Assembly (NCBI GenBank): GCA_017459985.1
Contig: JAFUBX010000037.1
Coordinates: forward strand, 51,310-115,309
From: Parasporobacterium sp.
GTDB taxonomy: Bacteria; Bacillota; Clostridia; Lachnospirales; Lachnospiraceae
Length of the DNA stretch: 64,000 bases
Direction: 5' to 3'
In this document: positions 10,939 through 62,330 of the stretch, in pieces
Layout of the letters: each line of letters begins with the position of its first letter
Position numbering within the stretch: position 1 is the first letter of the stretch
Made by a program: the position numbers and the translations under genes
The notes under the pieces: generated by a model
What the model was told of the DNA's origin: nothing
Database searches by the model: none
Seen by the model: the letters and a program-made list of their open reading frames with translations, nothing else

Positions 10939-11208
10939 TCATGTAAATAACGCCCTCTTGAATTTTTACATGATCAAATTCATATTATCATCATGTAAAA
11001 TCAGACAACTTCAAAATATACATGGTGAAAACGGCAATTTCATCATGTAAAAATGAAGCTTGTGAGAATATACATGATGAAAACGGTAATTTCATCATGT
11101 AAAAATAGAAATCCTGGAATTTACATGATAAACAGGGTTAAATCGTCATGTGAAAAAGAAAAGTACAAAAATATACATGATTTTCCTCGCTGAAATGTCA
11201 TGTGTTTT
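10939..11208 (+). repeat. Array A: six units of an inverted repeat with 52-bp period
   Basis: TCATGTAAAAAT-type arms start at 10939, 10991, 11043, 11095, 11146 and 11198, so the steps are 52, 52, 52, 51 and 52 bp. In each full unit the arm is answered 12-16 bases later by ATATACATGA or ATTTACATGA, and most units share a linker like TGAAAACGGTAATT. Loops differ between units. There is no cas gene, no transposase and no open frame. The 801-bp gap 10634-11434 holds only this array, the rnf terminator, the short direct repeats and a hairpin. Confidence 0.85.
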
Positions 11209-11283
11209 TTGAGGTTTTCAATTTTTGCATATGTTCTATATCCTCTCAAAGGTCGCAGAATATGCGGCGCAAATGAAATCATG

Positions 11284-11333
11284 AACAGCAGACAGGCCGT
11301 CACAGAGTTTGTGACGGCCCGTTTGCTGCTGTT
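11284..11333. terminator. Large hairpin between array A and the 5'-nucleotidase gene
   Basis: A perfect 10-bp stem GGCCGTCACA (11295-11304) / TGTGACGGCC (11310-11319) extends outward through AACAGCAG/CTGCTGTT with small mismatches. It lies about 100 bases past the end of the leftward 5'-nucleotidase gene and could terminate it, but a T-tract is lacking on both strands, so terminator status is uncertain. Confidence 0.4.
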
Positions 11334-11434
11334 GAAGAAGCCTGGTTCTTCTGTATTAAGGGATGGAAAAATTCCGTTTATGAGAACGCCTGAGGCTTTT
11401 GAAGAATCAGTTTCGCGTGGAGCTGGAGGCGCTG

Positions 11435-13633
11435 TCAGCCTTCTACTTCCACGATCCGACCGCCGGGGGCGATGGTATTCGGATATACGGTGTAATTCTC
11501 CGCGGTATGATTCTGGAACCAGCTACCCACCAGCTGCTGGACATCTTCTTTGCAGGAGCAGATCCAGTTGGCCATATCGCCGGTGTAGTTATCGATCTCG
11601 CCGCCGGTCATGGTGAGAATACCTTCGCAGGTCCAGTCTTCATCCACCTGCAGTCCGCCGTTTGCGGCATCATAGACCAGGGTATCGCCGACCTTGATGG
11701 TGACCGGAGTTCCAGACCCGGCCTGATAAGTGTAGGTGACTTCAATGCCGGAGTAATGGGTAAAGGTCGTGTCTTCCTTTTCAGGGTAGACGCTGCCGAG
11801 GCCTTTGGCGACCATATCCACCACCTGCTGTCCGGTCAGGGTGTCATAGTAAAGAACCGTGGGGTTGGCGAAAATGCCCTGCAGATTTTCCAGAGTGATA
11901 TCGCCGGGTTCCACGGAGGCTCTGAGCCAGAATCCCGGATAGGCCACGAAATCATAATCCGTGCCCATTTTCTCAGAAGCAGCTGCCAGGATCACATCGG
12001 TCATCAGATCACCCAGGTTGGTCTCATTACCGCGAACGGTTCCGCCTTCATTTCCGGCGGATAGACGTTCGCCGTTCAGGAAATATTCGGTATAAGCGAT
12101 CGGCTTGCCGAAATCTTCTTTGACCCGGGCCATGGCAAGGTCTACCAGCTCCTGTACCTGCGCGTCAGGCTGGATATCTTCCATGTCGCGGATAATATTT
12201 CCGTCCACAGCCAGGACCTTCCCATCCTTTACATACAGGAAGATCTCGCCGATGCAGTTGCCGAAGCTTTCTGCCTGGTTGACATAGGTCGGATCGGATC
12301 CGACCAGCACGCCCTGACCGTCATTGATGATGGAGTGGGTGTGTCCGTCGATAAAGACATCCAGATCTTCCACCTGGTCTGCCAGCTGCCAGGAATTGGT
12401 GTCATTGGAGGAAGCTCCGGTGGATTCTTCACCCATCCAACCGGTATGTCCGACACCGATGACGATATCAGCGCCGTCTTCCCGGAGCTGCTGCACACAG
12501 GCTTCGGAACTTGGAATGGAACCTGTGGAATCCAGTTCGACCGAGAGGGCTCCGCCGTTGGTGGTGAGGCCAAATAATCCGACCACGGTTCCCTGATCTG
12601 TGGTGAAGACGGCTGTATGGGGATAGGCTTCGCTGTCCCCCGGCAGATCTTCCATTTCCAGGGCAGAGAGATCCAGACCGCCGTTTTCATCAGTGGTGAC
12701 CTTTTCGTAAAGCTCGTCGAACAGATCATCCCCGATGATGCTTTCGTATGCCTGCGCGTACTCGGAAAGAGCCAGGCCGTCTTCCATTGTTTCTACATTC
12801 GCACAGATCGTCCGGGTGTTCTCATAGAGGCGGGACAGCAGGATATTCTGGCGTACCACACCGGAAGAGCCGTAATCATTGTTGCCGGGGGCAATCACAT
12901 CGTAAATCGGATCCATGATCGCCGGGATAAATTCTCCGTTGTATGAGCCCGCGACAGCCTCGCCGCCGCCATAGACATCGCCGGCGGAAACGGTCAGCAC
13001 CAGAGAATAGTCTCCGGAGGCTTTCAGTTCATCTGCCAGTCCTTTGACATAGGGCTCCACATCGAGGTGCCCATGGACATCATTGGTGTGGACAATGGCG
13101 ATTACCTCATCGTAATCCGAAACAAACTGGACGTTGCCGATGATCGTTCCGTTCTCCACGGAGTCGGATTCTTCAAAGAAGACGATGATCGGATACTGGG
13201 ATGTGATCTGCGCTTCCGGCGCGATCTCCAGCTTCTTTGTGTAAACGTCCGTTGTGAAGTCGTAACCTTCGGCACCGATGATCAGTTCCTCCATTTCTTC
13301 CGGAACCAGAACAACGGTCTGTGTACCTGTGGAAGTATCATTTGCGCCGCCGCTGCCGGGGCCGCCGGGACCACCGGGACCACCGGGTACCTGAGCGCTG
13401 TCGCCGCCGGGACCGCCCGGTGCCTGAGCACTGTCACCGCCGCCTGGACCGCCCGGTGCCTGAGCGCTGTCGCCACTGCCGGGAGCCTGTGAGCTGTCTC
13501 CTCCGGGACCACCGGGGTCGCCCGGACCTCCGGGAACGCCGGGGGCTGCATCCGGCGCGCCTGCAAATGCGCTGACGGCGGACAGGCCGAACACCAGACA
13601 GAGCACAAGGAACATGCTGATGATTTTTTTCAT
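11435..13633 (-). CDS. Secreted 5'-nucleotidase / 2',3'-cyclic phosphodiesterase family protein
   Basis: A signal peptide (residues 1-24, ending ASAFA-like) is followed by a low-complexity Gly/Pro/Ser linker of PGGPGGDSAQ-type repeats to about residue 95. The metallophosphatase domain follows, with HTNDVHGH, SAGDVYGGG, VGHTGW and DGHTHS as metal-site motifs, and then a UshA-type C-terminal domain to residue 732. The family removes phosphate from extracellular nucleotides. The usual GNH(D/E) catalytic motif reads GNND here, so the catalytic His is Asn; activity should not be assumed. No LPXTG or membrane anchor is seen at the C-terminus. It is divergent from gpsA. Confidence 0.85.
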   Translation of the reverse strand: MKKIISMFLVLCLVFGLSAVSAFAGAPDAAPGVPGGPGDPGGPGGDSSQAPGSGDSAQAPGGPGGGDSAQAPGGPGGDSAQVPGGPGGPGGPGSGGANDTSTGTQTVVLVPEEMEELIIGAEGYDFTTDVYTKKLEIAPEAQITSQYPIIVFFEESDSVENGTIIGNVQFVSDYDEVIAIVHTNDVHGHLDVEPYVKGLADELKASGDYSLVLTVSAGDVYGGGEAVAGSYNGEFIPAIMDPIYDVIAPGNNDYGSSGVVRQNILLSRLYENTRTICANVETMEDGLALSEYAQAYESIIGDDLFDELYEKVTTDENGGLDLSALEMEDLPGDSEAYPHTAVFTTDQGTVVGLFGLTTNGGALSVELDSTGSIPSSEACVQQLREDGADIVIGVGHTGWMGEESTGASSNDTNSWQLADQVEDLDVFIDGHTHSIINDGQGVLVGSDPTYVNQAESFGNCIGEIFLYVKDGKVLAVDGNIIRDMEDIQPDAQVQELVDLAMARVKEDFGKPIAYTEYFLNGERLSAGNEGGTVRGNETNLGDLMTDVILAAASEKMGTDYDFVAYPGFWLRASVEPGDITLENLQGIFANPTVLYYDTLTGQQVVDMVAKGLGSVYPEKEDTTFTHYSGIEVTYTYQAGSGTPVTIKVGDTLVYDAANGGLQVDEDWTCEGILTMTGGEIDNYTGDMANWICSCKEDVQQLVGSWFQNHTAENYTVYPNTIAPGGRIVEVEG

Positions 13634-13772
13634 AATTACCCTCCTGTAAATGTGAAATAAAATAAATGTGATAAAATCATTTTAGCAGATTACTGCAGAA
13701 AATGCAGTTTATTTCAAGGGGAAAGTTTGTTACATTATAAGAAAAGAATGCATTGGTCTGAGGAAAGTGATT

Positions 13773-14792
13773 ATGAGTGAACCGAAACGAATCGGAATTC
13801 TGGGCACAGGAACCTGGGGAACGGCACTGGCAAGAATGCTTGCAAATGACGGGCACGAGGTAACCTGCTGGTCCGCAATCCCGGAAGAAATCGAGCTGCT
13901 TTCAGGAAAACGAATCCATCCAAACCTGCCTGGGATCATGGTACCGGAATCCATCCGCTTTACCGGGGAGATCGGCAGCGCCTGCACGGAAAAGGACCTG
14001 GTGGTCTTTGCTGTACCGTCTGTTTATGTCCGTCGAACAGCACAGGCAGCAGTCCCGTATCTTGCGGACGGACAGATGATCGTGGATGTGGCGAAGGGGA
14101 TTGAACCGGATACGCTGAAGACAATGACAGAGATCATTTCCGATGTTCTGCAGAAGGAAAATCCCCGGATCCGGGTGCATCTGTGCGCGCTTTCCGGGCC
14201 GACCCATGCGGAGGAGGTCGCCGCTGATATGCCGACCACGATTGTGGCCGCCAGCAGAGAAAAGGAGGTCGCGGCATTTGTGCAGCAGGTGTTTTCCAAC
14301 CATGTCATGCGGGTGTACACGAATGAAGACATCAAGGGAGTCGAGATCTGCGGAGCTCTGAAAAATGTCATGGCTCTGGCTGCCGGAATCGCATCCGGCA
14401 TGGGGTACGGCGATAATCTCCGGGCTGCGATCATAACCCGGGGAAGTGCCGAAATGTCCCGGCTGGGACGCGCCATGGGCTGCAGAGAGCAGACCTTCGC
14501 CGGTCTGGCGGGGATCGGGGACCTGATCGTGACCGCCACCAGCAGGCACAGCAGGAACAACCGGGCCGGATATCTGATCGGGCAGGGAAAAACTGCGCAG
14601 GAAGCCATCCGGGAAGTCGGAATGGTCGTGGAGGGAATCAACGCGCTGCCGGCGGCGCGGAAACTGGCCGAAAAATATCATGTGGAGATGCCCATCACGG
14701 AAGCGGTGCACCAGGTAGTTGCAGAGGGAATGAAACCGGAGGAAATGCTGCATCATCTGATGGAGCGGGCATTTACGGAAGAACATTATTAA
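13773..14792 (+). CDS. gpsA: Glycerol-3-phosphate dehydrogenase [NAD(P)+]
   Basis: GpsA makes sn-glycerol 3-phosphate for phospholipid synthesis from dihydroxyacetone phosphate. The N-terminal Rossmann motif GTGTWGTALA is clear, and the catalytic segment EICGALKNVMALAAG with its lysine is present mid-protein. At 339 aa it matches the family. ATG 13773 is chosen over GTG 13767 because AGGA ends 8 bases before the ATG. The carbonic-anhydrase-like gene follows 23 bases on and is probably cotranscribed. Confidence 0.95.
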   Translation: MSEPKRIGILGTGTWGTALARMLANDGHEVTCWSAIPEEIELLSGKRIHPNLPGIMVPESIRFTGEIGSACTEKDLVVFAVPSVYVRRTAQAAVPYLADGQMIVDVAKGIEPDTLKTMTEIISDVLQKENPRIRVHLCALSGPTHAEEVAADMPTTIVAASREKEVAAFVQQVFSNHVMRVYTNEDIKGVEICGALKNVMALAAGIASGMGYGDNLRAAIITRGSAEMSRLGRAMGCREQTFAGLAGIGDLIVTATSRHSRNNRAGYLIGQGKTAQEAIREVGMVVEGINALPAARKLAEKYHVEMPITEAVHQVVAEGMKPEEMLHHLMERAFTEEHY

Positions 14793-14815
14793 AGGCACTG
14801 TTATTGGAGAAATGG

Positions 14816-15334
14816 ATGATCATAGAATTTAACGGCATAAAGCCGGATGTGGAAAAGGCTGCTTTTATTGCGGAGAACGCAGTAGTTATCGGGGATGTGG
14901 TTCTGGAGGAAGGATCCAGTATCTGGTTCGGCGCGGTTCTGAGAGGGGACTCCGGCCGGATCCATATCGGGAAGAACAGCAACGTACAGGACAACTGCGT
15001 GATCCATTGTGATGCAGGCGGCTGTGTGGAAGTCGGTGAAAATGTTGTGATCGGGCACAGCGCGGTGATCCACGGATGCCGCATTGGAGATGGCTGCATG
15101 ATCGGGATGGGTTCCATTCTTATGAATGACTCCGAAATTGGTGATCATTGCCTGGTCGGTGCCGGCACTCTGATCACCGAACGAAAAACATTTTCCGACC
15201 ACTCCCTGATCCTGGGCCGCCCCGCAAAGAAGCTCATGCAAGTAACCGGTGAACATCTGCGCATGATGGAAGCCGGCGCAGAGGAGTACCTGAAATTTGC
15301 CGCCCTTTACCAAAATAGGGATCCTCAATTATGA
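14816..15334 (+). CDS. Gamma carbonic anhydrase-like hexapeptide-repeat protein
   Basis: The 172-aa left-handed beta-helix protein has successive hexapeptide repeats (for example VVIGDV, SIWFGAVLRGD, NVVIGHSAVIHGC). The histidines in GHSAVIHG and in the earlier CVIHCDAGG fit the trimer zinc site of gamma-class carbonic anhydrases and YrdA-type proteins. The substrate of such stand-alone proteins is often unproven. ATG 14816 is taken as the start because GGAG lies 6-7 bases ahead; the upstream TTG 14804 overlaps that site. Confidence 0.88.
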   Translation: MIIEFNGIKPDVEKAAFIAENAVVIGDVVLEEGSSIWFGAVLRGDSGRIHIGKNSNVQDNCVIHCDAGGCVEVGENVVIGHSAVIHGCRIGDGCMIGMGSILMNDSEIGDHCLVGAGTLITERKTFSDHSLILGRPAKKLMQVTGEHLRMMEAGAEEYLKFAALYQNRDPQL

Positions 15335-15401
15335 TTGTAATCGGAGTTATTTCATGATATCATTTCAAAGAACAGCACATCAATGAATCTGAATCCGGGT
15401 G

Positions 15402-15432
15402 AAACAGCGGGTTTCCGCTGTTTTGTCTTTTA
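15402..15432 (+). terminator. Terminator after the carbonic-anhydrase-like gene
   Basis: The stem AAACAGCGG/CCGCTGTTT with a GTTT loop is followed by TGTCTTTT. It closes the gpsA transcript about 70 bases past the stop. Confidence 0.75.
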
Positions 15433-15529
15433 ATGCAGGAATTGCTTTTCCTGGATGGTCATCTGTATCCTTATTATAAAATAGATGGAAAATCGCGAGT
15501 ACATTTTTTCCAGCTGTATTCGCAGATAT

Positions 15530-15940
15530 GGGCGCTTCTGCAACCTGGGCGGTTAATCATCTTCCGCAATCTACGCCGGAAATCTCTTCTAATTGCCGCC
15601 GGATATCTCATATATTCCAAATGCCTCTTTTGAGGATAGTGAATATCCTTTATATGAAAATTCAAAAAGTTGAGATAACGCTAGATATCCTCAGAATGTT
15701 AGCTTGCCCCGATTGAGGATAAAAAACATCCTCAGATATCTAAGGCCCAAGATCTAGGGGTATTGCCGGCTGTCTCATTTTACGAAGAACCTCCGTATGA
15801 GGATATCTGACATCCTCAAAACAACCGATTTTTGTAATAGCGGAGATTCGGATTGAGCTGTTTGCAACTGCAGCTGCCTTGTGAAGCAGGAAAAATATTT
15901 TGGAAGGTAAATTCTGAAAAAGCCTGTAAACTCCACACCC
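15530..15940 (+). repeat. Split copy of intergenic module M, interrupted by array B
   Basis: The left half (15530-15583: GCGCTTCTGCA, CATCTTCCGCAATC, ACGCCGGAAAT) and right half (15891-15940: AAAAATATTTTGGAAGG, AAGCCTGTAAACTCCA) match, in order, one continuous 98-bp stretch at 34046-34143 read on the minus strand. Here the halves are separated by 307 bp containing array B. The two sites therefore look like occupied and empty versions of the same module. Confidence 0.7.
15631..15815 (+). repeat. Array B: TGAGGAT inverted repeats with roughly 42-bp period
   Basis: TGAGGAT-type arms begin at 15631, 15671 (variant TGAGATA), 15714 and 15798, so the steps are 40, 43 and 84 bp (twice 42). Each is answered within a few bases by ATCCT(CA), for example TGAGGATATC with CATCCTCA at 15798. 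The sequence is unrelated to array A. No gene or ribosome binding site is present. Confidence 0.7.
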
Positions 15941-15968
15941 GACCTTCCGCACATCTGTGGAAGGCCCT

Positions 15969-16273
15969 GGATTGCTGCGTGACCAAGATGTTTTCTCATA
16001 AAAAAGTCGAAAAATCAGGAATTATTTTAGAAAACTCCGGCAAATGCATCTTCCACAGCAAATTCCGGATTTGAGATGCAACGTGCAGGGAAAAACTTGG
16101 ATTTACGAACAAAGAAAAATGTTCTCATATCCCGGTTTTTCTGTAGAAGATGCAGGAGGGAGTCTGTCATGGAATTGACTGCAGTACAAGTGTATATGCA
16201 TCCCAAATTCCATTCATAGACGCGGTTTGCTGCATCGCCCGGAGTAGGAAAGCATCCATCCAGGGTGCAGAAG
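15969..16273 (+). repeat. Element E, copy 1 (dispersed structured repeat)
   Basis: The copy shares long blocks with 46948-47346: GATTGCTGCGTG, AATCAGGAATTATTTTAGAA, TGCATCTTCCACAG, TTCCGGATTT, ACGTGCAGGGAAAAA, TTTTTCTGTAGAAGATGCAG and a CGCGGTTTGCTGCATCGCCC block. It folds a hairpin at 16096-16135 (TTGGATTTACGAACA against TGTTCTCATATCC). Compared with copy 2 it lacks an internal block of about 95 bp. No open frame is conserved between copies, so the element looks non-coding. Confidence 0.75.
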
Positions 16274-16289
16274 ACCTAAAAATATTTAA

Positions 16290-16463
16290 AAGCTCTCCCA
16301 TTTCAGGTATGAAGACTATTACAACCATTATCGGTGGAAGCTGTCAGAACTTCGAAAGAAAGGGATCATTCCCGGAGTCAACCTGCTGCAGACTTTTGAG
16401 GCAAAGGGGCATCCGCCGGAACCGGGAGTCGTAAGAGGACTAATAGAGATTTACCTGAAGTAG
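16290..16463 (+). pseudogene. Gene remnant: C-terminal stub of an unknown protein
   Basis: An open frame of about 57 codons with good codon usage (including HYRWKLSELRKKGI and FEAKGHPPEPG) ends at TAG 16461-16463. It has no start codon or ribosome binding site and opens right where element E copy 1 ends. It reads like the surviving tail of a deleted gene. The family is not recognised. Confidence 0.55.
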
Positions 16464-16474
16464 TCAGTAAATAT

Positions 16475-17158: not shown

Positions 17159-17162
17159 CGGC

Positions 17163-18386: not shown

Positions 18387-18429
18387 TCTCCAAATTCTGT
18401 TTGCCGGTGTCTGCTGGGTGCATGCGGCA

Positions 18430-21379: not shown

Positions 21380-21412
21380 AATTTCCTCCAGTCAAGCATT
21401 TCTGTCTGTGTG

Positions 21413-22882: not shown

Positions 22883-22911
22883 TTGCGATATGGTCTGTAA
22901 TCCGGTAAAAT
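22883..22911 (+). promoter_or_regulatory. Predicted promoter of the mod/moa operon
   Basis: TTGCGA (22883-22888) and TAAAAT (22906-22911) are separated by 17 bp, which puts the transcript start near 22918, about 215 bases before modA. The long leader that follows has terminator-like structure. Confidence 0.5.
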
Positions 22912-22917
22912 ATAACA

Positions 22918-23105
22918 GTCTTCGAGGTCCCGGAACCTAAGGTGCGATTGCTAAGGACCGGGATCCAGCATCGGAAAATATCTGATGCTCAGGGCCGGAA
23001 AGGAAACTGACCGACCTTCCGAATTGAAAAGGGGACGGATCCATCATGCAGGCAGCAGTTCTGCCTTTTCTGATTTCCGTCTTAAGAAGACGGTTTTTTA
23101 TTGTT
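22918..23105 (+). promoter_or_regulatory. Structured leader with terminator/antiterminator before modA (Moco/Tuco riboswitch candidate)
   Basis: The leader pairs GGTCCCGG with CCGGGATC, then AGCATC with GATGCT, then has a GGAAAGGAAAC-containing internal region. It ends in a 7-bp terminator stem CCGTCTT (23077-23083) / AAGACGG (23087-23093) followed by TTTTTTATT. GACGGA at 23034-23039 can pair with TCCGTC at 23076-23081, which would disrupt that terminator. A mutually exclusive pair ahead of a molybdate uptake and cofactor operon suggests ligand-controlled attenuation. A molybdenum or tungsten cofactor riboswitch is the obvious candidate, but I cannot verify its consensus by eye. Confidence 0.6.
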
Positions 23106-33299: not shown

Positions 33300-33398
33300 A
33301 CCGCAATGCTCACAGTTTTTGACAATGGCTGCCGAAAAATTGGGATCTTCTGCACCTTGGATGGATGCCTTCCTGCTGTCGAATGTGCCGTAAAGTCC
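33300..33398 (-). repeat. Element E end fragment in the 33-34 kb repeat region
   Basis: On the minus strand the sequence around 33398-33340 reads GCAGGAAGGCATCCATCC and AGGTGCAGAAG, matching the 3' end of element E copy 1 (16244-16272). Nearby ACCGCAATGCTCACAG-TTTTTG (about 33299-33320) resembles the array D motif. This is a fragment only, with no gene. Confidence 0.5.
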
Positions 33399-33442
33399 AT
33401 GCCGCCGTTGACTTCATCCATACTTGTTTCCATCCTGCCATT

Positions 33443-33760
33443 TGGACCATCCTGAAAATAATCATCATTTACTATCCCTGTCATTTTTTCGAAAACAGGG
33501 ATAAGACTTTCCAATAATTTCATATATAGTCCAGTTCAGGCTCTCACAGGACCTTCCTTTTGGACCATATATTGAAAAATCGTCACTTTCTATCCCTGTT
33601 TTCAATTTCAAAACAGGGATATGATTTATCAACAATTTCATATATGGTCCAATCCGGGCCCTCTTTTACCACGCAATTCGGACTGTATATAAAAAAACTG
33701 CCAATTACTATCCCTGTTTTCCGGATCAGCGCAGGGATAGTATTTGGCAATTATTGCGCT
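33443..33760 (+). repeat. Array C: three tandem nested hairpins with 118-bp period
   Basis: Each unit has an inner stem CTATCCCTGTTTT / AAAACAGGGATAG; the CTATCCCTG arms begin at 33472, 33590 and 33708, exactly 118 bp apart. In units 1 and 2 an outer stem GGACCATATAT / ATATATGGTCC encloses it; unit 2 (33562-33650) is the most perfect. Unit 3 has GGACTGTATAT and lost its outer right arm but keeps an extended inner stem. The loops vary. No frame with a ribosome binding site covers the array. Confidence 0.85.
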
Positions 33761-33805
33761 GATCACCCAAAGACCTTCTGACTGCACAGATTCCTGTACG
33801 TGTAT

Positions 33806-33870
33806 TTCTGAAAAAAGCATCCGCATGCTCCTAAATCCGGAATTCACTGTGGCAGATGCTTCCGCCTGTA
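33806..33870 (-). repeat. Element E hairpin fragment
   Basis: Read on the minus strand this stretch gives GCATCTGCCACAGTGAATT, CCGGATTTAGGAGCATGC, closely matching element E copies 1 and 2 (TGCATCTTCCACAGTGA, TCCGGATTTAAGATGCA). The GCATC/GATGC ends keep the stem. It is a short piece rather than a full copy. Confidence 0.6.
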
Positions 33871-33872
33871 AT

Positions 33873-34024
33873 GTATCCGTAATCAGGAATTATTTTCGAT
33901 AAGCGGATACATTTAAAGACAGCTGTCTCCGCAATTTACCATTTCCGGAAAATAACGGATACAAAGCCGCCAGCGTCTGGCGCGAGTTACGCGCTCAAGA
34001 TGCACTTCAGCGGATGGCGGATAC
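33873..34024 (+). repeat. Spaced CGGATAC motifs
   Basis: CGGATAC occurs at 33904, 33956 and 34018 (steps 52 and 62 bp), with an inverted copy GTATCCG at 33873. The sequence AATCAGGAATTATTTT between the first two also occurs in both element E copies. The spacings are near whole helical turns. No gene is present. Confidence 0.5.
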
Positions 34025-34045
34025 AGAGTAAGAGCGGAAGGCCTG

Positions 34046-34143
34046 GTATGGAGTTTACAGGCTTTTACAGAATTTACCTTCCGAAATATATTTCTCCGCG
34101 TGGATTGCGGAAGATGATCACCCACCCAGGGTGCAGAAGCGCC
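34046..34143 (-). repeat. Uninterrupted copy of intergenic module M
   Basis: Read on the minus strand, this holds GCGCTTCTGCA, CATCTTCCGCAATCCACGC, AAATATATTTCGGAAGG and AAAGCCTGTAAACTCCA in one continuous run. The same blocks are split by array B at 15530-15940. It directly adjoins array D motifs at 34143. Confidence 0.7.
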
Positions 34144-34192
34144 GAAAATTGCAGCATTGCGGAAGACTTGCCGAAAAATTGCAGCAATGCGG
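34143..34192 (-). repeat. Array D motif, two copies
   Basis: CGAAAATTGCAGCATTGCGG (34143) and CGAAAAATTGCAGCAATGCG (34172) lie 29 bp apart. The same motif, in the opposite orientation, makes up the array at 62111-62330 almost 28 kb away. Confidence 0.75.
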
Positions 34193-46618: not shown

Positions 46619-46948
46619 TTATTTCGACTGTTCAAACAGCCAGTCTCTGATCGCATCAATTTTGTAAGCATAAATGAAGGACAACGTATGGGGCAGTGTC
46701 TGCTCGCTGCCGGAATCATCGGTAAACCGTGCTTCAAACAGTATCATGTTGGCTGGAACGCCTTCGGCGATAAGCTTTGCTGCCTTCTTACTCTGCTCCT
46801 CATCTTTGCAGTTCCATGTCCCAAAGGTATAAGTGACGCCATCTTCATCGAGCTTCGCATGATCTCTGCCTGTCCGTCGGATGCTTTGCTGTTTACTGCC
46901 GAGGTGACATAAAAGAATGTTGTATCCTCCAGACCTTCGAGGTTCGGG
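46619..46948 (-). pseudogene. Truncated gene remnant, minus strand
   Basis: On the minus strand two frames give coherent protein. EGLEDTTFFYVTSAVNSKAS runs into a frameshift near 46855, then KLDEDGVTYTFGTWNCKDEEQ through FIYAYKIDAIRDWLFEQSK ends at TAA 46619. The upstream part is missing: the readable frame stops exactly where element E copy 2 begins. The family is not recognised. The spurious plus-strand ORF here is its shadow. Confidence 0.6.
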
Positions 46949-47346
46949 ATTGCTGCGTGGCCGAGATATATTTTCCTACGAAAGGGTCAAAAATCAGGAA
47001 TTATTTTAGAAAACTCCGACAGATGCATCTTCCACAGTGAGTTCCGGATTTAAGATGCATTTTAAATGGTCTTAAAATGGCACTTCCGCTGTATGCGTAG
47101 CAGATTTTGTTCTCATTTTTTATTTTTCTCCTGTGCGTAGCAAAAATGCAACGTGCAGGGAAAAATCTGGATTTGAGAACAAAGTGAAGTGTTCTCAAAT
47201 TCCAGGTTTTTCTGTAGAAGATGCAGGATGGAGTCTGCAGCTAAATCGACCGTGGTACAAGCGTATATGCATTCCTGATGCCGTTCACAGCCGCGGTTTT
47301 GCTGCATCGCCCGCAGCAGGAAGACACCCACCCAAGGGGCAAAAGA
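46948..47346 (+). repeat. Element E, copy 2 (longest copy)
   Basis: It shares the blocks listed for copy 1 and adds about 95 bp after AAGATGCA that contain two TGCGTAGCA motifs. Its main hairpin is perfect: CTGGATTTGAGAACA (47167-47181) against TGTTCTCAAATTCCAG (47190-47205). The right end carries ACACCCACCCAAGGGGCA, like module M. It lies between a truncated gene and the small zinc-ribbon gene. Confidence 0.8.
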
Positions 47347-47486
47347 TCCAAAGAATGCTGTCGGCGGGATAATATTTGCTGCCATTTTCAATGGTTCCAT
47401 TACCCGGAATAAACTGTTATAATCTATAAAAGAATTATGAAGGGCATAGTGAATATGTCCCGTGCAGAAACAGAGAAGCAGGACAG

Positions 47487-47639: not shown

Positions 47640-48470
47640 ATGAACAGACCAATTACAACCTTGCATAACTGGCACAACACCTTATATCAGCAGTTGGCAA
47701 TTGATTTTTGCTGTAAGCCTGAAAATGTGGCAGACCGCCGGAATCATTTTACAGTTCATCAGTTCTTGGATGGCAGACGGACATACCACGAGAAGGATGG
47801 GTGCTATCTGAAGGTTGCTGTGATAAATGGGAAAGTGCTGTTTTCAGGAAGACGGGATATTCTTGCCTGGTGTGAAGAACAGTATCATGATACCGGCGGG
47901 GAATGGTTCTTTGAGGCGAAGAATATGCACAGACTGAATGAAAGGTTTTCTCAGGACGGATACCGGATAGCATTTGCCCATCCATTTTTCATTCCTGAAA
48001 ATGATGATGAGATCAATGGCGGTGATTATGAAATCCGCTGGTATGATGCAAATACAATTGAACAGTTCCGTGGTGACAGCCGCTATAAGAATGCCTATGG
48101 GTTTTGTGAAAAAGCACCTGATGTCATCGGTGTTGCAGCAATCAGGAATGGAACTATCTTAGGCATGGCAGGCGCCAGTTGTGACAGCCCTGCGATGTGG
48201 CAGATCGGAATTGATGTTGATCCGGCTGCAAGGCACCGCGGAATCGGGAAAATGCTGGTCTCAATACTTAAGAATGAAATCCTGAGAAGGGGGATACTGC
48301 CGTTTTACGGAACAGGAATGTCTCACTTCGCTTCACAAAACACAGCTCTTGGTGCAGGGTTCAGGCCTGAATGGGCAGAACTCGTGACTTCAAAAGTGTC
48401 AGAACAGGACGCTTTTACGGTAAAAGACGAAACTTTGCTGAATGAATCTCTGATGATTGGAAAACTGTGA
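47640..48470 (+). CDS. GNAT-family N-acetyltransferase
   Basis: The C-terminal half (residues about 165-250) is a GNAT fold with the acetyl-CoA loop RHRGIGKMLVS. The N-terminal 120 residues (LHNWHNTLYQQLAIDF, DGRRTYHEKDGCYLKVAVINGKV in parts) are an accessory domain seen in related clostridial GNATs. The substrate is unknown. The last 15 codons are nearly identical in DNA to the end of the GNAT gene at 49239, suggesting a recombined 3' end. Confidence 0.82.
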   Translation: MNRPITTLHNWHNTLYQQLAIDFCCKPENVADRRNHFTVHQFLDGRRTYHEKDGCYLKVAVINGKVLFSGRRDILAWCEEQYHDTGGEWFFEAKNMHRLNERFSQDGYRIAFAHPFFIPENDDEINGGDYEIRWYDANTIEQFRGDSRYKNAYGFCEKAPDVIGVAAIRNGTILGMAGASCDSPAMWQIGIDVDPAARHRGIGKMLVSILKNEILRRGILPFYGTGMSHFASQNTALGAGFRPEWAELVTSKVSEQDAFTVKDETLLNESLMIGKL

Positions 48471-49210
48471 TGAAAAAGATACTGAATGCCAATCAGCTGA
48501 AGCTGATTGCAATTATTGCAATGACGATTGACCATCTGACATGGGCCTTCTTTCCGGGAACACAGGCGGTTTGGTACGTATTCTGCCTGCATATTATCGG
48601 ACGGCTGACAGCGCCTATTATGTGGTTCTTCATTGCGGAAGGATGCCATTATACGCATGACAGGAAGAAGTATCTGTTAAGGCTGTTTCTGTTTGCGGTC
48701 ATCTCCCACTTTGCCTATGATTTTGCCTTCGGAATTCCGTTCCTGCCATTGTCGACAGGGGCCTTTAATCAGACCAGTGTCATGTGGTCACTGGCCCTGG
48801 CAGCCGTGTTAATATTTCTTTGCCGGAATGAAAACATCCCCAAATGGGGAAAAATCGTGGCCATTATCGTTGCCTGTCTGGTTTCATTCCCATCCGACTG
48901 GTCCAGTATTGCCGTTATGTGTCCATTCTTTTTATATGCCCATCGGGGGCAGTTTAAGAAGCAGGGCATCGATATTGTTCTGTGGACCTTTATTTATGCA
49001 TTGGTGTATTTCCTGTTTCTGGATAAACTGTATGGTGCGCTTCAGATGTTTACATTCCTGACAATCCCGCTTCTGTCCATGTATAACGGAGAACGGGGCC
49101 GGTGGAAAGGAATGAAGTGGTTCTTCTATATCTATTATCCGGCACATCTGGTAATCATCGGCTTAATAAGAATTTTACTGCATGGAAATATACCATTGAT
49201 TTTTGGATGA
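48470..49210 (+). CDS. TraX-family membrane protein
   Basis: The 246-aa protein has about seven hydrophobic helices and the TraX family start LNANQLKLIAIIAMTIDH, plus GRLTAPIMWFFIAEGCHYT. TraX of F plasmids acetylates pilin, but chromosomal TraX-like proteins in Firmicutes are widespread and not tied to conjugation. Its ATG overlaps the stop of the preceding GNAT gene (TGATG). Confidence 0.88.
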   Translation: MKKILNANQLKLIAIIAMTIDHLTWAFFPGTQAVWYVFCLHIIGRLTAPIMWFFIAEGCHYTHDRKKYLLRLFLFAVISHFAYDFAFGIPFLPLSTGAFNQTSVMWSLALAAVLIFLCRNENIPKWGKIVAIIVACLVSFPSDWSSIAVMCPFFLYAHRGQFKKQGIDIVLWTFIYALVYFLFLDKLYGALQMFTFLTIPLLSMYNGERGRWKGMKWFFYIYYPAHLVIIGLIRILLHGNIPLIFG

Positions 49211-49975: not shown

Positions 49976-50182
49976 GGGCATCTTGTACAGGAAAACGCGG
50001 ATTTGAGAACATTTCACTTTGTTCTTAGATCCGTGTTTTTCTGTGTGCGTAGCATTTTTGTTACGTGTATGGAAAAATGGGAATACAAGAACAATAAATG
50101 CTACGCACAGAATAAAAGTGCTTTTTTGAGAACATCGCGGATGCATCTTATTTCTGGAAAATGCCGTACAAGATGCAAACTC
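49976..50182 (-). repeat. Element E, copy 3 (reverse orientation, core only)
   Basis: Read on the minus strand it matches the middle of copy 2: AAGATGCATC, GCACTTTTATTCTGTGCGTAGCA-type block, a second arm TGCTACGCACA, then GGATCTAAGAACAAAGTGAA, TGTTCTCAAATCC and GATGC at the end. The arms CTGTGCGTAGCAT and ATGCTACGCACA form a second hairpin, clearer here than in copy 2. The flanks of copies 1 and 2 are absent. Confidence 0.75.
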
Positions 50183-52707: not shown

Positions 52708-52722
52708 TTATACAGGAGAATA

Positions 52723-53322: not shown

Positions 53323-53460
53323 TTTTCTATTTCTCCCATAATGCGAAATAGACAGCATCCTTTCTCATTAGTGATGGTTTATTCTCACATCTGCTGCCCA
53401 TATACTATGTAATAACAGGGAAAACAAAGAGAAGAACCCCTGGAAAGGTGAGTTAATCGT

Positions 53461-53886: not shown

Positions 53887-53905
53887 AACAAAGGAGGTGG
53901 ATCTG

Positions 53906-54130: not shown

Positions 54131-54268
54131 CAGCCGGCGACTATAATGGTTTTATTTCAGTTAGCAAAGACTAATACAATATTGATTTCATACCTGCTCG
54201 AGTGCTTACAAACACAGCGAATTTATTGACAAAATTCGGATTTCAGAATAAAGTTAACCATGACTAAC

Positions 54269-54291
54269 CACAGTGCCTTCGCGGCACTGTG
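54269..54291 (+). promoter_or_regulatory. Stable leader hairpin before the Tp47-like gene
   Basis: CACAGTGCC/GGCACTGTG forms a perfect 9-bp stem with a TTCGC loop, 32 bases before the start codon. No T-tract follows, so it is more likely an mRNA leader structure or the end of upstream transcription than a strong terminator. Confidence 0.5.
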
Positions 54292-54322
54292 TCATTTAAT
54301 ATCAGGAAAGGAATGGTTAACG

Positions 54323-55633: not shown

Positions 55634-55634
55634 T

Positions 55635-56798: not shown

Positions 56799-56941
56799 AA
56801 GCGGCTGCGGGGAGGTACTCCCGGCGGATCTGTCAGGATTTCCGGTAAACGCAAATGAGCTTTATATAGGAATTTGGCGGCGGCAGTGATAGAATAATAC
56901 CCGGAAGGATAGTGGAAGACGTTCAGTGAGGATGGGAGCAT

Positions 56942-57787: not shown

Positions 57788-57841
57788 GAATGCCTCCCCG
57801 GAAAATGGAACATCGGAAATGGGGCATTTCCGGACAAACAG

Positions 57842-57905
57842 GACAAGAAATTCCTCAATATTTGACAAAAATAGGGGCAGAAGTTGCCCTTATTTTTGTT
57901 ATAAT
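57842..57905 (+). promoter_or_regulatory. AraC-type direct-repeat operator and promoter of the sugar operon
   Basis: GACAAGAAA (57842) and GACAAAAATAGGGG (57864) are direct repeats 22 bp apart, as AraC-family proteins bind. An inverted repeat AAAAATAGGGGCA/TGCCCTTATTTTT (57867-57897) follows, then TATAAT (57900-57905) without a good -35, typical of an activator-dependent promoter. The same arrangement recurs in reverse at 61883-61948. Confidence 0.75.
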
Positions 57906-57962
57906 CATAAACAGGAAAAATATGACCGGAGCATACGATGCCCGGAGAAGGAAGGTGTTGCT

Positions 57963-58592
57963 ATGAAGATTCAAAATTTATCGGATCCGTCTTTCCGGCA
58001 GTACGGCAGAGTTGTGACCGGATATGATTTTTCGGATCTTTTGGAGGCGGTGAGTCAGACTCCCCGCCCGTTGGATGAGGTGATCTATGTGGCATCGGCG
58101 CAGGAACTGGAAGAAAGGCCTGCAGCCGGATTCCTGAAGAAAAATGTTTATGGAGGATTGCCGGTCCAGATCGGATACTGCAACGGAAACAACCGCAGAC
58201 TGAATGCGCTGGAATACCACAGAAGCTCGGAGGTGGATATCGCAGCGGATGACCTGATCCTTCTGCTGGGAAGGCAGCAGGATATCAGGGAGGATTTCAG
58301 TTATGATACGGCGCTGGTGGAAGCATTTTTTGTTCCGGCGGGAACGGCTGTGGAAGTATATGCAACAACCCTGCATTATGCGCCATGTTCCGCCGGCACG
58401 GAAGGATTCCGCTGCATCATCGTGCTTCCCTATGAGACCAACTGGGATCTGACCGAGGAGCCGGTCCGGGAAGGAGAAGGCATCCTGATGACGGCCCGGA
58501 ATAAATGGCTGATCGCCCACGAAGACGCAGCGATCGAAGGAGCCTTCAACGGCCTGAAGGGAAAGAACATCAATCTGGATGAAGACGCGTGA
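57963..58592 (+). CDS. DUF4867 family protein
   Basis: The 209-aa protein is a cupin-like DUF4867 member (YVASAQELEE, PVQIGYCNGNN, EAFFVPAGTAVEVYATTLHYAPC in part). It is widely found next to L-fucose/arabinose isomerase-type genes and sugar kinases in Clostridia, so a role as sugar epimerase or isomerase in the same pathway is plausible. The start at 57963 has GAAGGTG upstream; the longer frame covers the promoter. Confidence 0.85.
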   Translation: MKIQNLSDPSFRQYGRVVTGYDFSDLLEAVSQTPRPLDEVIYVASAQELEERPAAGFLKKNVYGGLPVQIGYCNGNNRRLNALEYHRSSEVDIAADDLILLLGRQQDIREDFSYDTALVEAFFVPAGTAVEVYATTLHYAPCSAGTEGFRCIIVLPYETNWDLTEEPVREGEGILMTARNKWLIAHEDAAIEGAFNGLKGKNINLDEDA

Positions 58593-58623
58593 AAACCAGG
58601 AAAAACAAAGAGGAGGAAATGAC

Positions 58624-60102
58624 ATGTTCAATATACCGGAAGTAAAAATCGGAGTTGTAGCTGTAAGCAGGGACTGTTTCCCGGAAAGCCTTTCCGTGAA
58701 CCGCAGAGCCAATCTGATGAAGGCATATACGGAAAAGTATGGCAGCGAAGGGATCTATGAATGTCCGATCTGTATCGTGGAAAGCGAGATCCATATGCAG
58801 CAGGCGCTGGCGGATATCAAGGCAGCCGGCTGCAATGCCCTGTGCGTCTATCTGGGCAATTTCGGTCCGGAGATCGCAGAGACCATGCTGGCCAAATACT
58901 TTGACGGGCCGGCCATGTTCATCGCCGCAGCGGAGGAGGAGGACCTGATCCAGGGCAGAGGCGATGCCTACTGCGGCATGCTGAATGCCAGCTATAACCT
59001 GGCCCTGCGCAACCTGAAAGCCTATATCCCGGAAGAGCCGGTGGGAAGCGCTTCCCAGTGCGCCGATATGATCCATGAATTTATCGGAATCGCCCGGGCG
59101 GTGATCGGACTGTCCGATCTGAAGATCATCAGCTTTGGCCCGCGGCCGTTGAATTTCCTGGCCTGCAACGCGCCGATCAAACAATTCTATAATCTCGGGG
59201 TCGAGGTGGAGGAAAATTCGGAGCTGGATCTGTTCGAATCCTTCAACAATCATGCTGGTGACAAGCGGATCCCGGAAGTGGTTGCCGATATGGAAGCAGA
59301 GCTCGGAAAGGGCAACAAGAAACCGGAGATCCTGGAAAAACTTGCTCAATATGAGCTGACTCTTCTGGACTGGGCAGAGGCCCACAAGGGCTCCCGCAAA
59401 TATGTGACCCTGTCCGGCAAATGCTGGCCCGCATTCCAGACCCAGTTCGGATTTGTTCCCTGTTATGTCAACAGCCGTCTGACCGGACGCGGGATCCCGG
59501 TATCCTGCGAGGTGGATCTGTACGGAACCCTGAGCGAGTATATCGGCCAGTGTGTCAGCGGTGACGCCGTGACACTGCTGGATATCAACAATACAGTCAC
59601 CGATGCGATCTATAACGAAGAGATCAAAGGCAAATTCGATTACCGGCAGGGCGAAACCTTCATGGGATTCCACTGCGGCAATACCTGTTCCTCCAAACTG
59701 TCTTCCTTTGAAATGAAATACCAGATGATCATGGCCAGAGCTCTGCCTGTGGAAGTGACGAACGGAACCCTGGAGGGCGACCTGACTCCGGGCGATATCA
59801 CCTTCTACCGGATCCAGAGCACGGCAGACAATCAGCTCAGGGCCTATATGGCACAGGGAGAGATCCTTCCGGTGGCGACCCGCTCCTTCGGCGGCATCGG
59901 CATTTTCGCGATCCGGGAGATGGAGAGATTCTACCGTCATGTGCTGATCGAGAAGAACTTCCCGCATCACGGCGCCGTGATGTTCGGCCACTATGCAAAG
60001 CAGCTGTATGAAGTATTCAAACTGATTGGCGTGGAACCCTGCGAGATCGGATACAATCAGCCGGCCGGCGTGCGGTATCCGACGGAGAATCCCTGGAGAT
60101 AA
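58624..60102 (+). CDS. L-fucose/L-arabinose isomerase family protein
   Basis: The 492-aa protein has the fucose/arabinose isomerase layout, with a C-terminal domain including HCGNTCSSKL and a metal-binding Glu and His region (CEVDLYGTLSEYIGQ, HHGAVMFGHYAK). Family members convert aldoses to ketoses. The following xylulokinase suggests a ketopentose product, but the real sugar is not determined. The ATG at 58624 has AGAGGAGGAAA ahead. Confidence 0.85.
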   Translation: MFNIPEVKIGVVAVSRDCFPESLSVNRRANLMKAYTEKYGSEGIYECPICIVESEIHMQQALADIKAAGCNALCVYLGNFGPEIAETMLAKYFDGPAMFIAAAEEEDLIQGRGDAYCGMLNASYNLALRNLKAYIPEEPVGSASQCADMIHEFIGIARAVIGLSDLKIISFGPRPLNFLACNAPIKQFYNLGVEVEENSELDLFESFNNHAGDKRIPEVVADMEAELGKGNKKPEILEKLAQYELTLLDWAEAHKGSRKYVTLSGKCWPAFQTQFGFVPCYVNSRLTGRGIPVSCEVDLYGTLSEYIGQCVSGDAVTLLDINNTVTDAIYNEEIKGKFDYRQGETFMGFHCGNTCSSKLSSFEMKYQMIMARALPVEVTNGTLEGDLTPGDITFYRIQSTADNQLRAYMAQGEILPVATRSFGGIGIFAIREMERFYRHVLIEKNFPHHGAVMFGHYAKQLYEVFKLIGVEPCEIGYNQPAGVRYPTENPWR

Positions 60103-60154
60103 TCCGGGGATCTTCGGGTAACCCGCGGATCGGAATCAGAAAAGGGAGGTTTGT

Positions 60155-61612
60155 ATGCTGTATATCGGAATTGACCTGGGAACCTCGGCAGTCAAGCTGC
60201 TGCTGATGGAGGCAGACGGGACGATCCGCCGGATCGTTTCCCGGGAATACCCGCTGTATTTTCCGCATCCCGGATGGTCGGAGCAGGATCCCCGGGACTG
60301 GTATGAACAGACGATTGAAGGGCTGAAGGAGCTGACCTCCGGTTGTGACCGGAGTCAGATCGCCGGGATCAGTTTCGGAGGGCAGATGCACGGCCTGGTA
60401 GTCCTGGATGAACAGGATGAGGTCATCCGTCCTGCCATCCTGTGGAATGACGGAAGAACGGAAGCTCAGACAGAATATCTGAACAATGTGATCGGCAGAG
60501 AGAAATTGTCCGCGTATACCGCCAATGTGGCATTTGCCGGATTCACCGCTCCGAAGATCCTCTGGATGAAGGAGGAGGAACCGGATCTGTATGCCAGGAT
60601 CGCGAAGATCATGCTGCCGAAGGATTATCTGGCTTACCGTCTGTCCGGATCATTCTGTACGGATCTGTCGGATGCTTCCGGCATGCTGCTGCTGGATGTG
60701 AAGAACCGCTGCTGGTCGGAGGAAATGCTGAAGATCTGCGGGGTCCGTAAGGAACAGCTCCCGGCTCTGTATGAAAGCTATAAAGTGGTCGGGACGCTGA
60801 AAAAGGAGATTGCGGAGAAACTGGGGTTTCCGGAGGATGTCCGGGTGATCGCCGGAGCGGGGGACAATGCTGCCGCCGCCGTGGGAACCGGAACCGTCGG
60901 AGACGGTGCCTGCAATATTTCTCTGGGGACCTCCGGTACGATCTTCATTTCCAGCCGGTCCTTCCGGGTGGATGAGAACAATGCCCTGCATTCCTTTGAT
61001 CATGCGGACGGCAGTTATCATCTGATGGGATGCATGTTAAGCGCAGCATCCTGCAACAAATGGTGGAATGAAGAGATCCTCAATACTGTTGATTACGGGG
61101 CAGAACAAAAGGACATCACGGCGCTGGGAGACAATCCGGTATTTTTCCTGCCGTATCTGATGGGGGAGAGGTCTCCCCACAATGACCCCAATGTCCGTTC
61201 CGTCTTTCTCGGCATGTCCATGGACACAACCCGCAGTCAGATGACCCAGGCGGTACTGGAAGGAGTTGCTTTCGGGCTCAGAGATTCCCTGGAGGTCGCC
61301 AGGAGCCTCGGCATCCATCTGACACGCACCAGGATCTGCGGCGGCGGTGCGAAGAGTCCTCTGTGGAGGCGGATCATTGCGGCTGTTCTGAATCTGCAGG
61401 TGGAGATCCTGGAGATCGAAGAGGGCCCTGCCCTGGGAGGCGCCATGCTGGCTGCCGTAGGGTGCGGGGAATATCCGGATGTACAAAGTGCTGCAAAGCA
61501 GATCGTCCGGGTGGCACAGATCATCGACCCGGAAAAGGATCTGGTGGAGAAGTACGAGGCGCAGTATCAGAAATTCCGCAGGATTTATCCGGTGGTGAAG
61601 GAACTGTTCTGA
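60155..61612 (+). CDS. xylB: Xylulokinase
   Basis: This FGGY-family kinase (485 aa) phosphorylates D-xylulose to enter the pentose phosphate pathway. It has YIGIDLGTSAVK at the N-terminus, GGQMHGLVVLDE, LPKDYLAYRLSG, and GTSGTIFISS plus GGGAKSPLWRRI in the ATP domain. The start follows AAAGGGAGG. It ends the DUF4867-isomerase-xylB operon. Confidence 0.93.
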   Translation: MLYIGIDLGTSAVKLLLMEADGTIRRIVSREYPLYFPHPGWSEQDPRDWYEQTIEGLKELTSGCDRSQIAGISFGGQMHGLVVLDEQDEVIRPAILWNDGRTEAQTEYLNNVIGREKLSAYTANVAFAGFTAPKILWMKEEEPDLYARIAKIMLPKDYLAYRLSGSFCTDLSDASGMLLLDVKNRCWSEEMLKICGVRKEQLPALYESYKVVGTLKKEIAEKLGFPEDVRVIAGAGDNAAAAVGTGTVGDGACNISLGTSGTIFISSRSFRVDENNALHSFDHADGSYHLMGCMLSAASCNKWWNEEILNTVDYGAEQKDITALGDNPVFFLPYLMGERSPHNDPNVRSVFLGMSMDTTRSQMTQAVLEGVAFGLRDSLEVARSLGIHLTRTRICGGGAKSPLWRRIIAAVLNLQVEILEIEEGPALGGAMLAAVGCGEYPDVQSAAKQIVRVAQIIDPEKDLVEKYEAQYQKFRRIYPVVKELF

Positions 61613-61650
61613 GACAGTTTGCCGAACACCAACGGTTTCCTGGATTCGTG

Positions 61651-61687
61651 AAAAACAGGCAGTCCGCAATTTGTGCAGACTGCCTGT
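61651..61687 (-). terminator. Terminator on the minus strand downstream of xylB
   Basis: ACAGGCAGTC/GACTGCCTGT form a perfect 10-bp stem with a 13-base loop; on the minus strand it is followed by TTTTTCAC. It would end the leftward GH3 gene remnant, and a minus-strand zinc-ribbon-like ORF here is only a translation of this hairpin. Confidence 0.75.
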
Positions 61688-61806
61688 CCATGATAGATAT
61701 CCCGGTCACCCTCTGCGGAGAGCGCATTGTATTTAGCCCGGGTCTCTGTGGAAATCACCCCGGCTCTCTCCTCAATGGTCATCCGGCTTACCAGTTCTTC
61801 CTGCTC
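61688..61806 (-). pseudogene. Remnant of a GH3 glycoside hydrolase gene
   Basis: On the minus strand the frame reads EQEELVSRMTIEERA then GVISTETRAKYN and AEGDRDIYHG, two conserved N-terminal blocks of GH3 beta-glucosidases/xylosidases. The stretch normally between them (about 60-70 residues) and all of the barrel after them are gone. Frameshifts precede the first block. It starts just inside a promoter of the same type as the xylulokinase operon, so it was probably a co-regulated sugar hydrolase. Confidence 0.75.
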
Positions 61807-61882
61807 TCATGCTTTTCTGCAGTCTCTGCGTCAGTGTATCCTCACGCTTTTTCTGCCGGTCCGGAATCCTTCCTCCGAAATC

Positions 61883-61948
61883 ATTATAGCAATTGAGAAG
61901 GGCAATATCTGCCCCCTATTTTTGTCCATTTAGAGGGTGATTTTTGTC
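61883..61948 (-). promoter_or_regulatory. Second AraC-type operator and promoter, minus strand
   Basis: Read on the minus strand, GACAAAAATCACCC (from 61948) and GACAAAAATAGGGG (from 61926) are 22 bp apart, followed by TATAAT (61888-61883). The order and spacing mirror the promoter at 57842-57905, including GCAGA...TTGCCCTT between repeat and -10. It faces the GH3 remnant. Confidence 0.75.
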
Positions 61949-62110
61949 ATTTTAGGCCGGAATCCACCCAAAAACGGGTTTGCCCGAAAGCCGGCCCGCA
62001 AGCCGATCTGCGGATGCGATCTGCGGCTCTCTGGGATTTATGCCACTTCCGCCATATTTCTGTGATATAATACATTTCATAATATGTTTGACGGCGTTTG
62101 ACCCAGATTT

Positions 62111-62330
62111 TCCGCAATGCTGCAATTTTTCGTCAGTCGCTGTCGAAAATCTCACGCAATGCTGCAATTTTTCGTCAATGCAGCTTTGAGAGGTGTGCTT
62201 CTGCCAGAAATCTCACGCAATGCTGCAATTTTTCGGCAAAAAACGGGTCTGTAGGAGCTGTCTGCCGAAAATCTCACGCATTGCTGCATTTTTTCGGCAG
62301 GTATTGTCGAAAATGTCGAGCATTGCGGAA
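62111..62330 (+). repeat. Array D: GCAATGCTGCAATTTTTCG repeats
   Basis: CGCAATGCTGCAATTTTTCG starts at 62113, 62155, 62216 and 62277, with a degenerate inverted end copy near 62318; the steps are 42, 61, 61 and 41 bp. Units from the second on are preceded by CGAAAATCTCA, so CGAAAAT and ATTTTTCG make an inverted repeat around each GCAATGCTGC core. The same motif occurs reversed at 34143-34192. The 61949-62416 gap holds no gene. Confidence 0.85.

Follow-up and report, generated by a model that had tools for sequence, protein, structure and literature searches.

Dispersed intergenic arrays of regularly spaced palindromic half-sites in a Parasporobacterium genome

Related kinds of intergenic repeat

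The small repeats found between bacterial genes are usually viewed either as RNA hairpins or as the relics of dead transposons. The described systems closest in kind to the repeats presented here are BOX elements, MITEs and the neisserial intergenic mosaic elements (dRS3/NIME), and no description of the repeats themselves was found in the open-licence literature searched. NIMEs consist of repeat units strung into long arrays between short inverted repeats, and the present repeats can be likened to them, by description only, as long mosaic intergenic arrays with short inverted-repeat bounds; NIMEs belong to another phylum and are not known to have phased half-sites. The ends of Tn7 and IS21 hold several copies of one transposase-binding site at set spacings, but these ends flank genes, whereas here the sites compose nearly the whole element. 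Elements of the IS630 type target TA.

BOX elements of Streptococcus pneumoniae are, in the account consulted, dispersed and intergenic, with outer modules enclosing inner ones whose number varies; they are clustered and inserted into one another, terminal inverted repeats and target duplications have been reported, and mobilisation by the enzyme of a transposon is presumed (PMC3049150). They are also discussed there as structured RNA and are over-represented between convergent genes (PMC3049150). The elements of this genome are likewise dispersed, intergenic, modular and nested, but the one termed D below differs from BOX as described there in lacking covariation and in a gene context near background, and phase-locked palindromic sites set in near-random filler form no part of that account (PMC3049150). 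With MITEs of the RUP/IS630 type they share a noncoding nature and inverted ends (PMC3049150), and TA flanks would fit; no IS630-type transposase above cut-off is found here, however, sites in ordered series fill the interior, and the composites reach about 1 kb. REP/BIME repeats and their RAYT enzymes offer a likeness in dispersed extragenic palindromes that sometimes form arrays, REPs being marked by GTAG/CGTC tags (PMC3733652). Only two Y1 transposases were found here, and a TnpB-like gene follows each of them.

Four arrays and the elements that carry them

The window is a stretch of 64,000 nucleotides from contig JAFUBX010000037.1, and positions are counted from its first letter. An earlier note had placed four arrays, A to D, in gaps separating called genes, and they sit at those positions, all real and far beyond chance expectation. 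None is confined to the contig: arrays that were unique to it, or periods that scattered, would have spoken against the note, and instead further copies lie elsewhere in the genome and the periods are sharp. The features are as follows.

10868..11230, no strand: whole dispersed A element, made up of array A with a CATGCG...CGCATG palindrome to its left and part of one to its right
10939..11204, no strand: array A, 52-bp period, with half-sites TACATGA (10967, 11019, 11071, 11122, 11174) and TCATGTA (10939, 10991, 11043, 11095, 11146, 11198), each with at most one mismatch
15531..16303, + strand: composite copy with array B, lacking the D-type ends found on other copies
15632-15817: array B sites, GAGGATA/TATCCTC, at a step of about 42 bp
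15902-15948: GGAAGGT...ACCTTCC palindrome in the same composite copy
33301..34192, + strand: composite copy of 892 bp without a called gene and with D-type inverted ends, CCGCAATGCT at 33301 and, close to the right end, a pair of inverted copies of which the last ends at 34192
33441..33755, no strand: array C inside that composite, 118-bp period, with TATCCCTG at 33473, 33591 and 33709, CAGGGATA at 33496, 33614 and 33732, and flanking GGACC/GGTCC half-sites
46945..47352, + strand: right-hand modules of the composite in a further copy, resembling 15969-16280
49978..50177, - strand: diverged inverted copy of the module at 47024-47224
62112..62328, + strand: element D, 217 bp, with perfect inverted ends CCGCAATGCT/AGCATTGCGG

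The note's view that the four cores are unrelated does not hold for B and C: both arrays lie inside one mosaic element, roughly 1 kb long and devoid of called genes, some copies of which bear D-type ends. A is a family separate from both D and this composite. In the window it is flanked by a convergent RnfB-like gene on one side and a 5'-nucleotidase-like gene on the other; four further sequences of the genome match the whole element at length, with 80-87% identity, and its CATGCG units step by 52 bp as the array itself does. A CRISPR was considered and set aside, as this needs spacers unique to the locus and the dispersed A copies share their filler (80-87% identity overall). Neither A nor the AGAAY arrays of related genomes (below) show an inverted end outside the array itself.

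The earlier note had played down a mobile origin, which for D is strongly indicated. The element has 46 matches in the genome, and it occupies at least 37 distinct places, that in the window included, over at least 214 bp; this copy number is a lower bound, given that 40 of 92 candidates were scored, and two more long matches are inverted re-matches of places already counted. Both ends are common to 30 aligned copies whose flanks are mostly unrelated, which gives D the sharp terminal inverted repeats of a MITE, and the end motif ACCGCAATGCT occurs 57 + 51 times in the genome against none for the reversed control. Between the ends lie three sites with the core CTCACGCAWTGCTGCAWTTTTTCGKCA. Elements with the same ends come in sizes of 53, 95, 156 and 217 bp, with a recurrent size of 207 bp, such that the number of inner modules varies between fixed outer ones (53, 95, 156, 217) as it does in BOX, and one 53-bp element is nested inside another. 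The size classes searched for yielded 36 elements, at least one pair of which are copies with common flanks; a flanking direct repeat of exactly 2 bp (TA) is present in 18 and one of 3 bp or more in none. This TA may represent a target duplication, and it can also be read as part of the inverted end. Splicing the flanks of 32 elements gave no clean empty site: two elements matched CATGCG arrays at 68-80%, and the other matches were to the elements themselves or to the end motif. The genes around D differ little in arrangement from background, and therefore no regulatory role is visible.

What might move such elements was sought with DDE_3 and Y1 profiles in the assembly, which is 95% complete, and no transposase with D-type ends was found. 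The sole DDE_3 (IS630 type) match fell below the cut-off and is by eye a phage terminase, while the two Y1 genes are by eye IS605-like. Opposed D-type ends about 1-10 kb apart gave one pair, among 100 of the 108 exact end sites, and it belongs to a composite without an open reading frame. Nor did the partner gene that the note had envisaged emerge, as the genes closest to 30 array sites have no family in common; the neighbours that seemed shared were doubly counted genes, genes from duplicated contigs and a single short, partial match spanning 43-58 residues.

Arrays do not occupy every gap. In a sample picked mostly around hits, the autocorrelation threshold is passed by 75 of the 330 gaps that measure 150 bp or more, against none of 330 Markov-shuffled gaps. 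Repeat of at least 60 bp is found in 7 of the 36 gaps in the window (24% of gap bases) and in 2 of the 36 gaps in four stretches picked independently of hits (3.4%); a figure of 29% of gap bases is inflated because it comes from stretches picked around hits.

Spacing and constraint

Each family keeps its own period. The steps in the window are 52, 52, 51 and 52 bp for A, 118 and 118 bp for C, and 61, 61 and 42 bp for D with its left end included, while the B sites at 15632, 15715 and 15799 and the inverted ones at 15644, 15686, 15727 and 15811 follow about 42 bp and its multiples. Across 1,109,327 sampled bases of the genome, with nearest same-strand spacings tallied up to 200 bp, D favours 61 bp (52 of 108) and 42 bp (30 of 108), A 52 bp (53 of 79), C 118 bp (32 of 50), B 41-43 bp (33 of 68) and the p palindrome 74 bp (18 of 20). 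A strict rule of whole helical turns is not supported: at 10.5 bp per turn 52, about 42 and 74 bp are near, but 118 bp (11.2 turns) and 61 bp (5.8) are off. For A, unit steps over nine arrays, four of which are copies of one array, are exactly 52 bp in 31 of 36 cases, 51 bp in three and 104 bp in two, the period being kept though most of the filler is near random.

The half-sites and their spacing look to be under constraint. In the stretch of A aligned in all five dispersed copies, variation affects 10 of 89 columns in the half-sites and 60 of 153 in the filler (p=1.9e-6), and the alignment has a single 1-bp indel; in D conservation over 10-column windows is 0.88-1.00 in the sites versus 0.57-0.82 in the spacers. 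The same is seen in two congeneric genomes whose sites are unrelated to these, G006 and G012, where AGAAY-N7/9-RTTCT palindromes recur about every 42 bp (centre steps of 41, 42, 42, 42, 42, 41 and 41 in one stretch): among seven copies, over the stretch they share, 8 of 46 half-site columns vary versus 106 of 139 in the filler (p=1.4e-12), and four copies align without gaps over 267 columns. Both p-values take columns as independent. This constraint in dispersed copies exceeds what dead transposon copies need, though a like trace could come from selection acting in active source lineages, or from copies recombining with one another.

The arrays are probably non-autonomous, transposed elements of phased predicted binding sites, and the fuller reading, in which they are dispersed noncoding elements made mostly of ordered sites for DNA-binding proteins, with D and the composites copied by a transposase, is given better than even chances. 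One or more trans-acting, sequence-specific proteins would bind the array sites, half-site pair and spacing both being peculiar to each family, and the protein, probably a dimer or oligomer, would dock repeatedly along the DNA at that spacing. The outermost sites of D and of the B/C composites would double as element ends, and because of this the candidate binder, or a partner sharing its sites, is most likely a transposase, by which the elements may be copied into gaps at TA-containing targets. The binder would change along with its sites. The defined ends, sites and spacings can now be used to find the mobilising protein, and its identity, together with the change of site between sister species, becomes a question for DNA pull-down and strain comparison.

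Related genomes and competing readings

The note's proposal of one design with differing sequences extends to congeneric genomes, as the arrays of G001, G005 and G006/G012 gave no match in this one; taken together, the elements look like a group of mobile, protein-bound repeats that evolves quickly. Periodic gaps number 1 of 27 in G001, 1 of 26 in G005 and 2 of 36 in G006, the last count excluding six gaps that are masked loci. Among the genomes searched the array sequences are lineage-restricted: D is found in none of 60 others, 13 of them of the same genus; the A pattern in none of 396 other family genomes, of which G005 is the sole genus member, nor in the examined stretches of G006, G001 and G005; and the AGAAY pattern in two genomes of the 14 from the genus. 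Phages gave no match to D and plasmids none to the composite, viral contigs contained neither the A nor the D pattern in exact form, and GTDB contigs gave no exact match to the D core.

The gap that follows the RnfB-like gene contains array A in this genome, and the orthologous gap of a sister genome contains an AGAAY array. This would suit a host nucleoprotein system, in which the arrays are selected docking sites of a protein of chromosomal architecture or segregation and protein and site change together between species, and so would the periods of 52 and about 42 bp close to whole turns and the constraint on half-sites and spacing in two sets of genomes. It is nevertheless unlikely, given that motifs as restricted as D, A and AGAAY are unusual for a housekeeping site, that the sister keeps an array in just one of the two orthologous gaps that could be compared, and that D has transposon-like ends and nesting. 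It is a speculative and rather doubtful idea that a gut Lachnospiraceae genus holds a binder of its own in each lineage with dozens of dispersed site arrays phased at 4 or 5 turns, the architecture being selected while site and protein give way jointly to new ones, in some cases without a change of chromosomal position; if true, this would be a rapid-turnover system resembling, in bacteria, satellite arrays and the proteins that bind them.

Neutral, satellite-like repeats produced by slippage and recombination, and having no binding function, are improbable. The spacing is exact despite near-random filler, half-site columns are far less variable than filler in both tests, and D is dispersed with sharp ends, against which can be set near-homogeneous tandem arrays in three stretches and one of four D copies at apparently the same site with other spacers, which suggests recombination between D copies.

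DNA-level recognition, as the note had proposed, fits the constrained sites and spacing better than hairpins do, and is favoured because the arms do not covary. That the arrays are transcribed as hairpins and serve as terminators, small RNAs or stabilisers of mRNA is very improbable: consensus folding, column shuffles and Rfam lent this no support, compensatory changes are lacking (140 to 300 of 300 column shuffles fold at least as well as the eight D segments by mean energy; D covariation term -0.13 kcal/mol), variable arm positions of A pair in 10, 13 and 20 of 29 cases against 14.8, 17.1 and 20.8 expected, and AGAAY arms are independent over 34 sites (p=0.70). At gathering score Rfam reports in the window a Moco riboswitch alone, with no match at the arrays, and D does fold better than shuffles on both strands (z of -6.1 and -5.7), as is expected of any palindromic DNA.

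Elements with D-type ends

The four periodic inverted-repeat arrays (A to D) described in the earlier note are real at the places reported, and genome-wide searches reveal each one to be part of a dispersed repeat of the source genome (3.53 Mb, 131 contigs, 94.75% complete; the window is C127:51310-115309). Element D, 217 bp with inverted ends at window positions 62112-62328, has 46 genome matches and, counting the window copy, at least 37 distinct places with a span of at least 214 bp, a copy number that is a lower bound because 40 of 92 candidates were scored. All 30 aligned copies begin CCGCAATGCT and finish AGCATTGCGG, within flanks that are unrelated save for some exceptions, which are explained by duplication, by residence in the same composite or by an adjacent CATGCG repeat (a palindrome family that adjoins array A and forms its own arrays elsewhere). 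The end motif ACCGCAATGCT has 57+51 genome occurrences against none for a reversed control. Of 543 sampled gaps 47 contain it, and coding sequence holds two occurrences; coding share is 81-82% in the sampled stretches, using a home-made gene caller. None of the 45 D-type intervals with both neighbour genes called, a count that also takes in short intervals nested within longer ones, falls inside a called gene; their neighbour genes are in tandem for 30, convergent for 9 and divergent for 6, where gaps of 60 bp or more as a whole give 362, 59 and 85, respectively.

Pairs of D-type ends enclose elements of 53, 95, 156, 207 and 217 bp, a size ladder with constant ends that resembles BOX elements, where the inner modules vary. 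The ~207-bp variant recurs in sampled stretches L149, L152, L142, L159 and L225 with additional end motifs internally, and looks as though elements have been nested or fused. Array C sits in the window within an 892-bp element with D-type ends, of which there is a 984-bp copy elsewhere. Motif maps of this composite give an order common to the copies, which runs from one end through the C array (118-bp steps), motif y, the p palindromes (set 74 bp apart), the B array (~42) and motif w to the other end. The B side carries D-type ends in copies L133, L136, L138 and L227; such ends were not seen at the window's B copy, and composite copies are mosaic and frequently truncated. Non-autonomous transposition of both D and the composites is indicated by their dispersal and nesting, by the sharp inverted ends with TA flanks and by the size ladder.

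Stretches L010, L150, L152 and L025 hold D copies at apparently one composite site, L025 without the common right flank. In L010 the D spacers differ while the flanks match those of the other copies, which suggests recombination between D copies. A gene at L129:3173-3703, immediately before a full composite element, has a weak DUF6431 match, below cut-off.

Phase and constraint in array A

Array A is built of TACATGA/TCATGTA half-sites. Gaps hold 153 opposite-strand pairs within 150 bp, of which 135 keep a single 52-bp phase exactly and 149 to within 1 bp. Same-strand pairs no more than 320 bp apart number 178, and 151 of these are spaced at exactly 52, 104, 156, 208 or 260 bp; coding sequence holds no opposite-strand and three same-strand pairs. 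The nine A arrays with at least two units have steps of 52 (31), 51 (3) and 104 bp (2), and the CATGCG arrays share the 52-bp step. The proposal that spacings lie near whole helical turns holds for A, B and the p palindromes and fails for the steps of 61 and 118. Genes adjoining A arrays, named by eye from translations, include RnfB-like, ribosomal protein S9, HflX and glutamate synthase; no common family was found among them.

Between arrays, the filler separating half-sites is 0.22-0.5 identical at most columns (0.30 expected), with some columns beside half-sites more alike, up to 0.84. In this nine-array comparison the search rule itself accounts for part of the half-site conservation, and four arrays of the nine are copies of a single one. 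A test independent of that rule compared columns in the part shared by all of five dispersed copies, the window array among them. Half-sites are variable at 10 of 89 columns and filler at 60 of 153 (p=1.9e-6; 8 of 89 and 51 of 153 without the window copy), with a single 1-bp indel.

Arrays in related genomes

D has no match in 60 other genomes, 13 of them in the genus. The A pattern, with 101 matches in the source genome, has none in 396 other family genomes, G005 being the sole genus member among these, and none in sampled stretches of G006 (402,507 bases including L250), G001 and G005; 1.1 Mb of the source genome has 29. In sampled stretches the relatives carry arrays of their own. For instance, GGGAGTAATTTT palindromes from G001 have 19 matches there, two in G002, one in G004 and none in 11 other genomes, and TGACACGATT-type arrays from G005 have six, in G005 only of 14 genomes.

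Stretches of G006 carry AGAAY-N7/9-RTTCT arrays, whose double-unit pattern is found at 46 loci of G006 and 13 of G012 (control zero), and in none of the other 12 genus genomes. Single AGAAY sites number 34 in 44,659 gap bases against 7 in 355,176 coding bases of the G006 stretches and L250, and two in 201,467 gap bases of the source genome. The eight palindromes of L172 have centre steps of 41, 42, 42, 42, 42, 41 and 41 despite longer inner gaps in two of them, and thus the palindrome centres keep phase. Across seven dispersed G006/G012 copies 8 of 46 half-site columns are variable against 106 of 139 in filler (p=1.4e-12); four G006-type copies align without gaps along 267 columns, with 9 of 70 half-site and 130 of 197 filler columns variable.

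L250, from a Parasporobacterium sp. MAG of sheep jejunum, is the closest named relative by RnfB-like protein (88% protein identity; 81% DNA identity across 4.3 kb). The gap after this gene holds array A in the window and an AGAAY array in L250, the sequence of which is also in G006; a second comparable gap has no array in the relative.

Arm covariation is absent from D segments, A arm positions and AGAAY arms, and conservation therefore looks to be of double-stranded half-sites rather than hairpins. Constraint on both half-sites and spacing points to a putative DNA-binding protein that would read phased sites.

Further arrays and genes

L234:19370-19620, source-genome array of ~42-bp period, half-sites around TTACGTTTGA/TCAAACGTAA, both unit orientations
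L141:8730-8940, source-genome array of 41-bp period, unit TACCACACTACTGTCATTTTTGCG
L203:5500-5730, G005 array of ~75-bp period, half-sites CGAACAAAA/CGTACAAAA
L162 and L163, two genes coding for Y1 transposases; each has a TnpB-like gene after it, an arrangement judged IS605-like by eye
Window 48470-49207, TraX-family gene (Pfam PF05857)
Window 22908-23050, + strand, Moco riboswitch (Rfam RF01055, 65 bits), just ahead of the gene called at 23046
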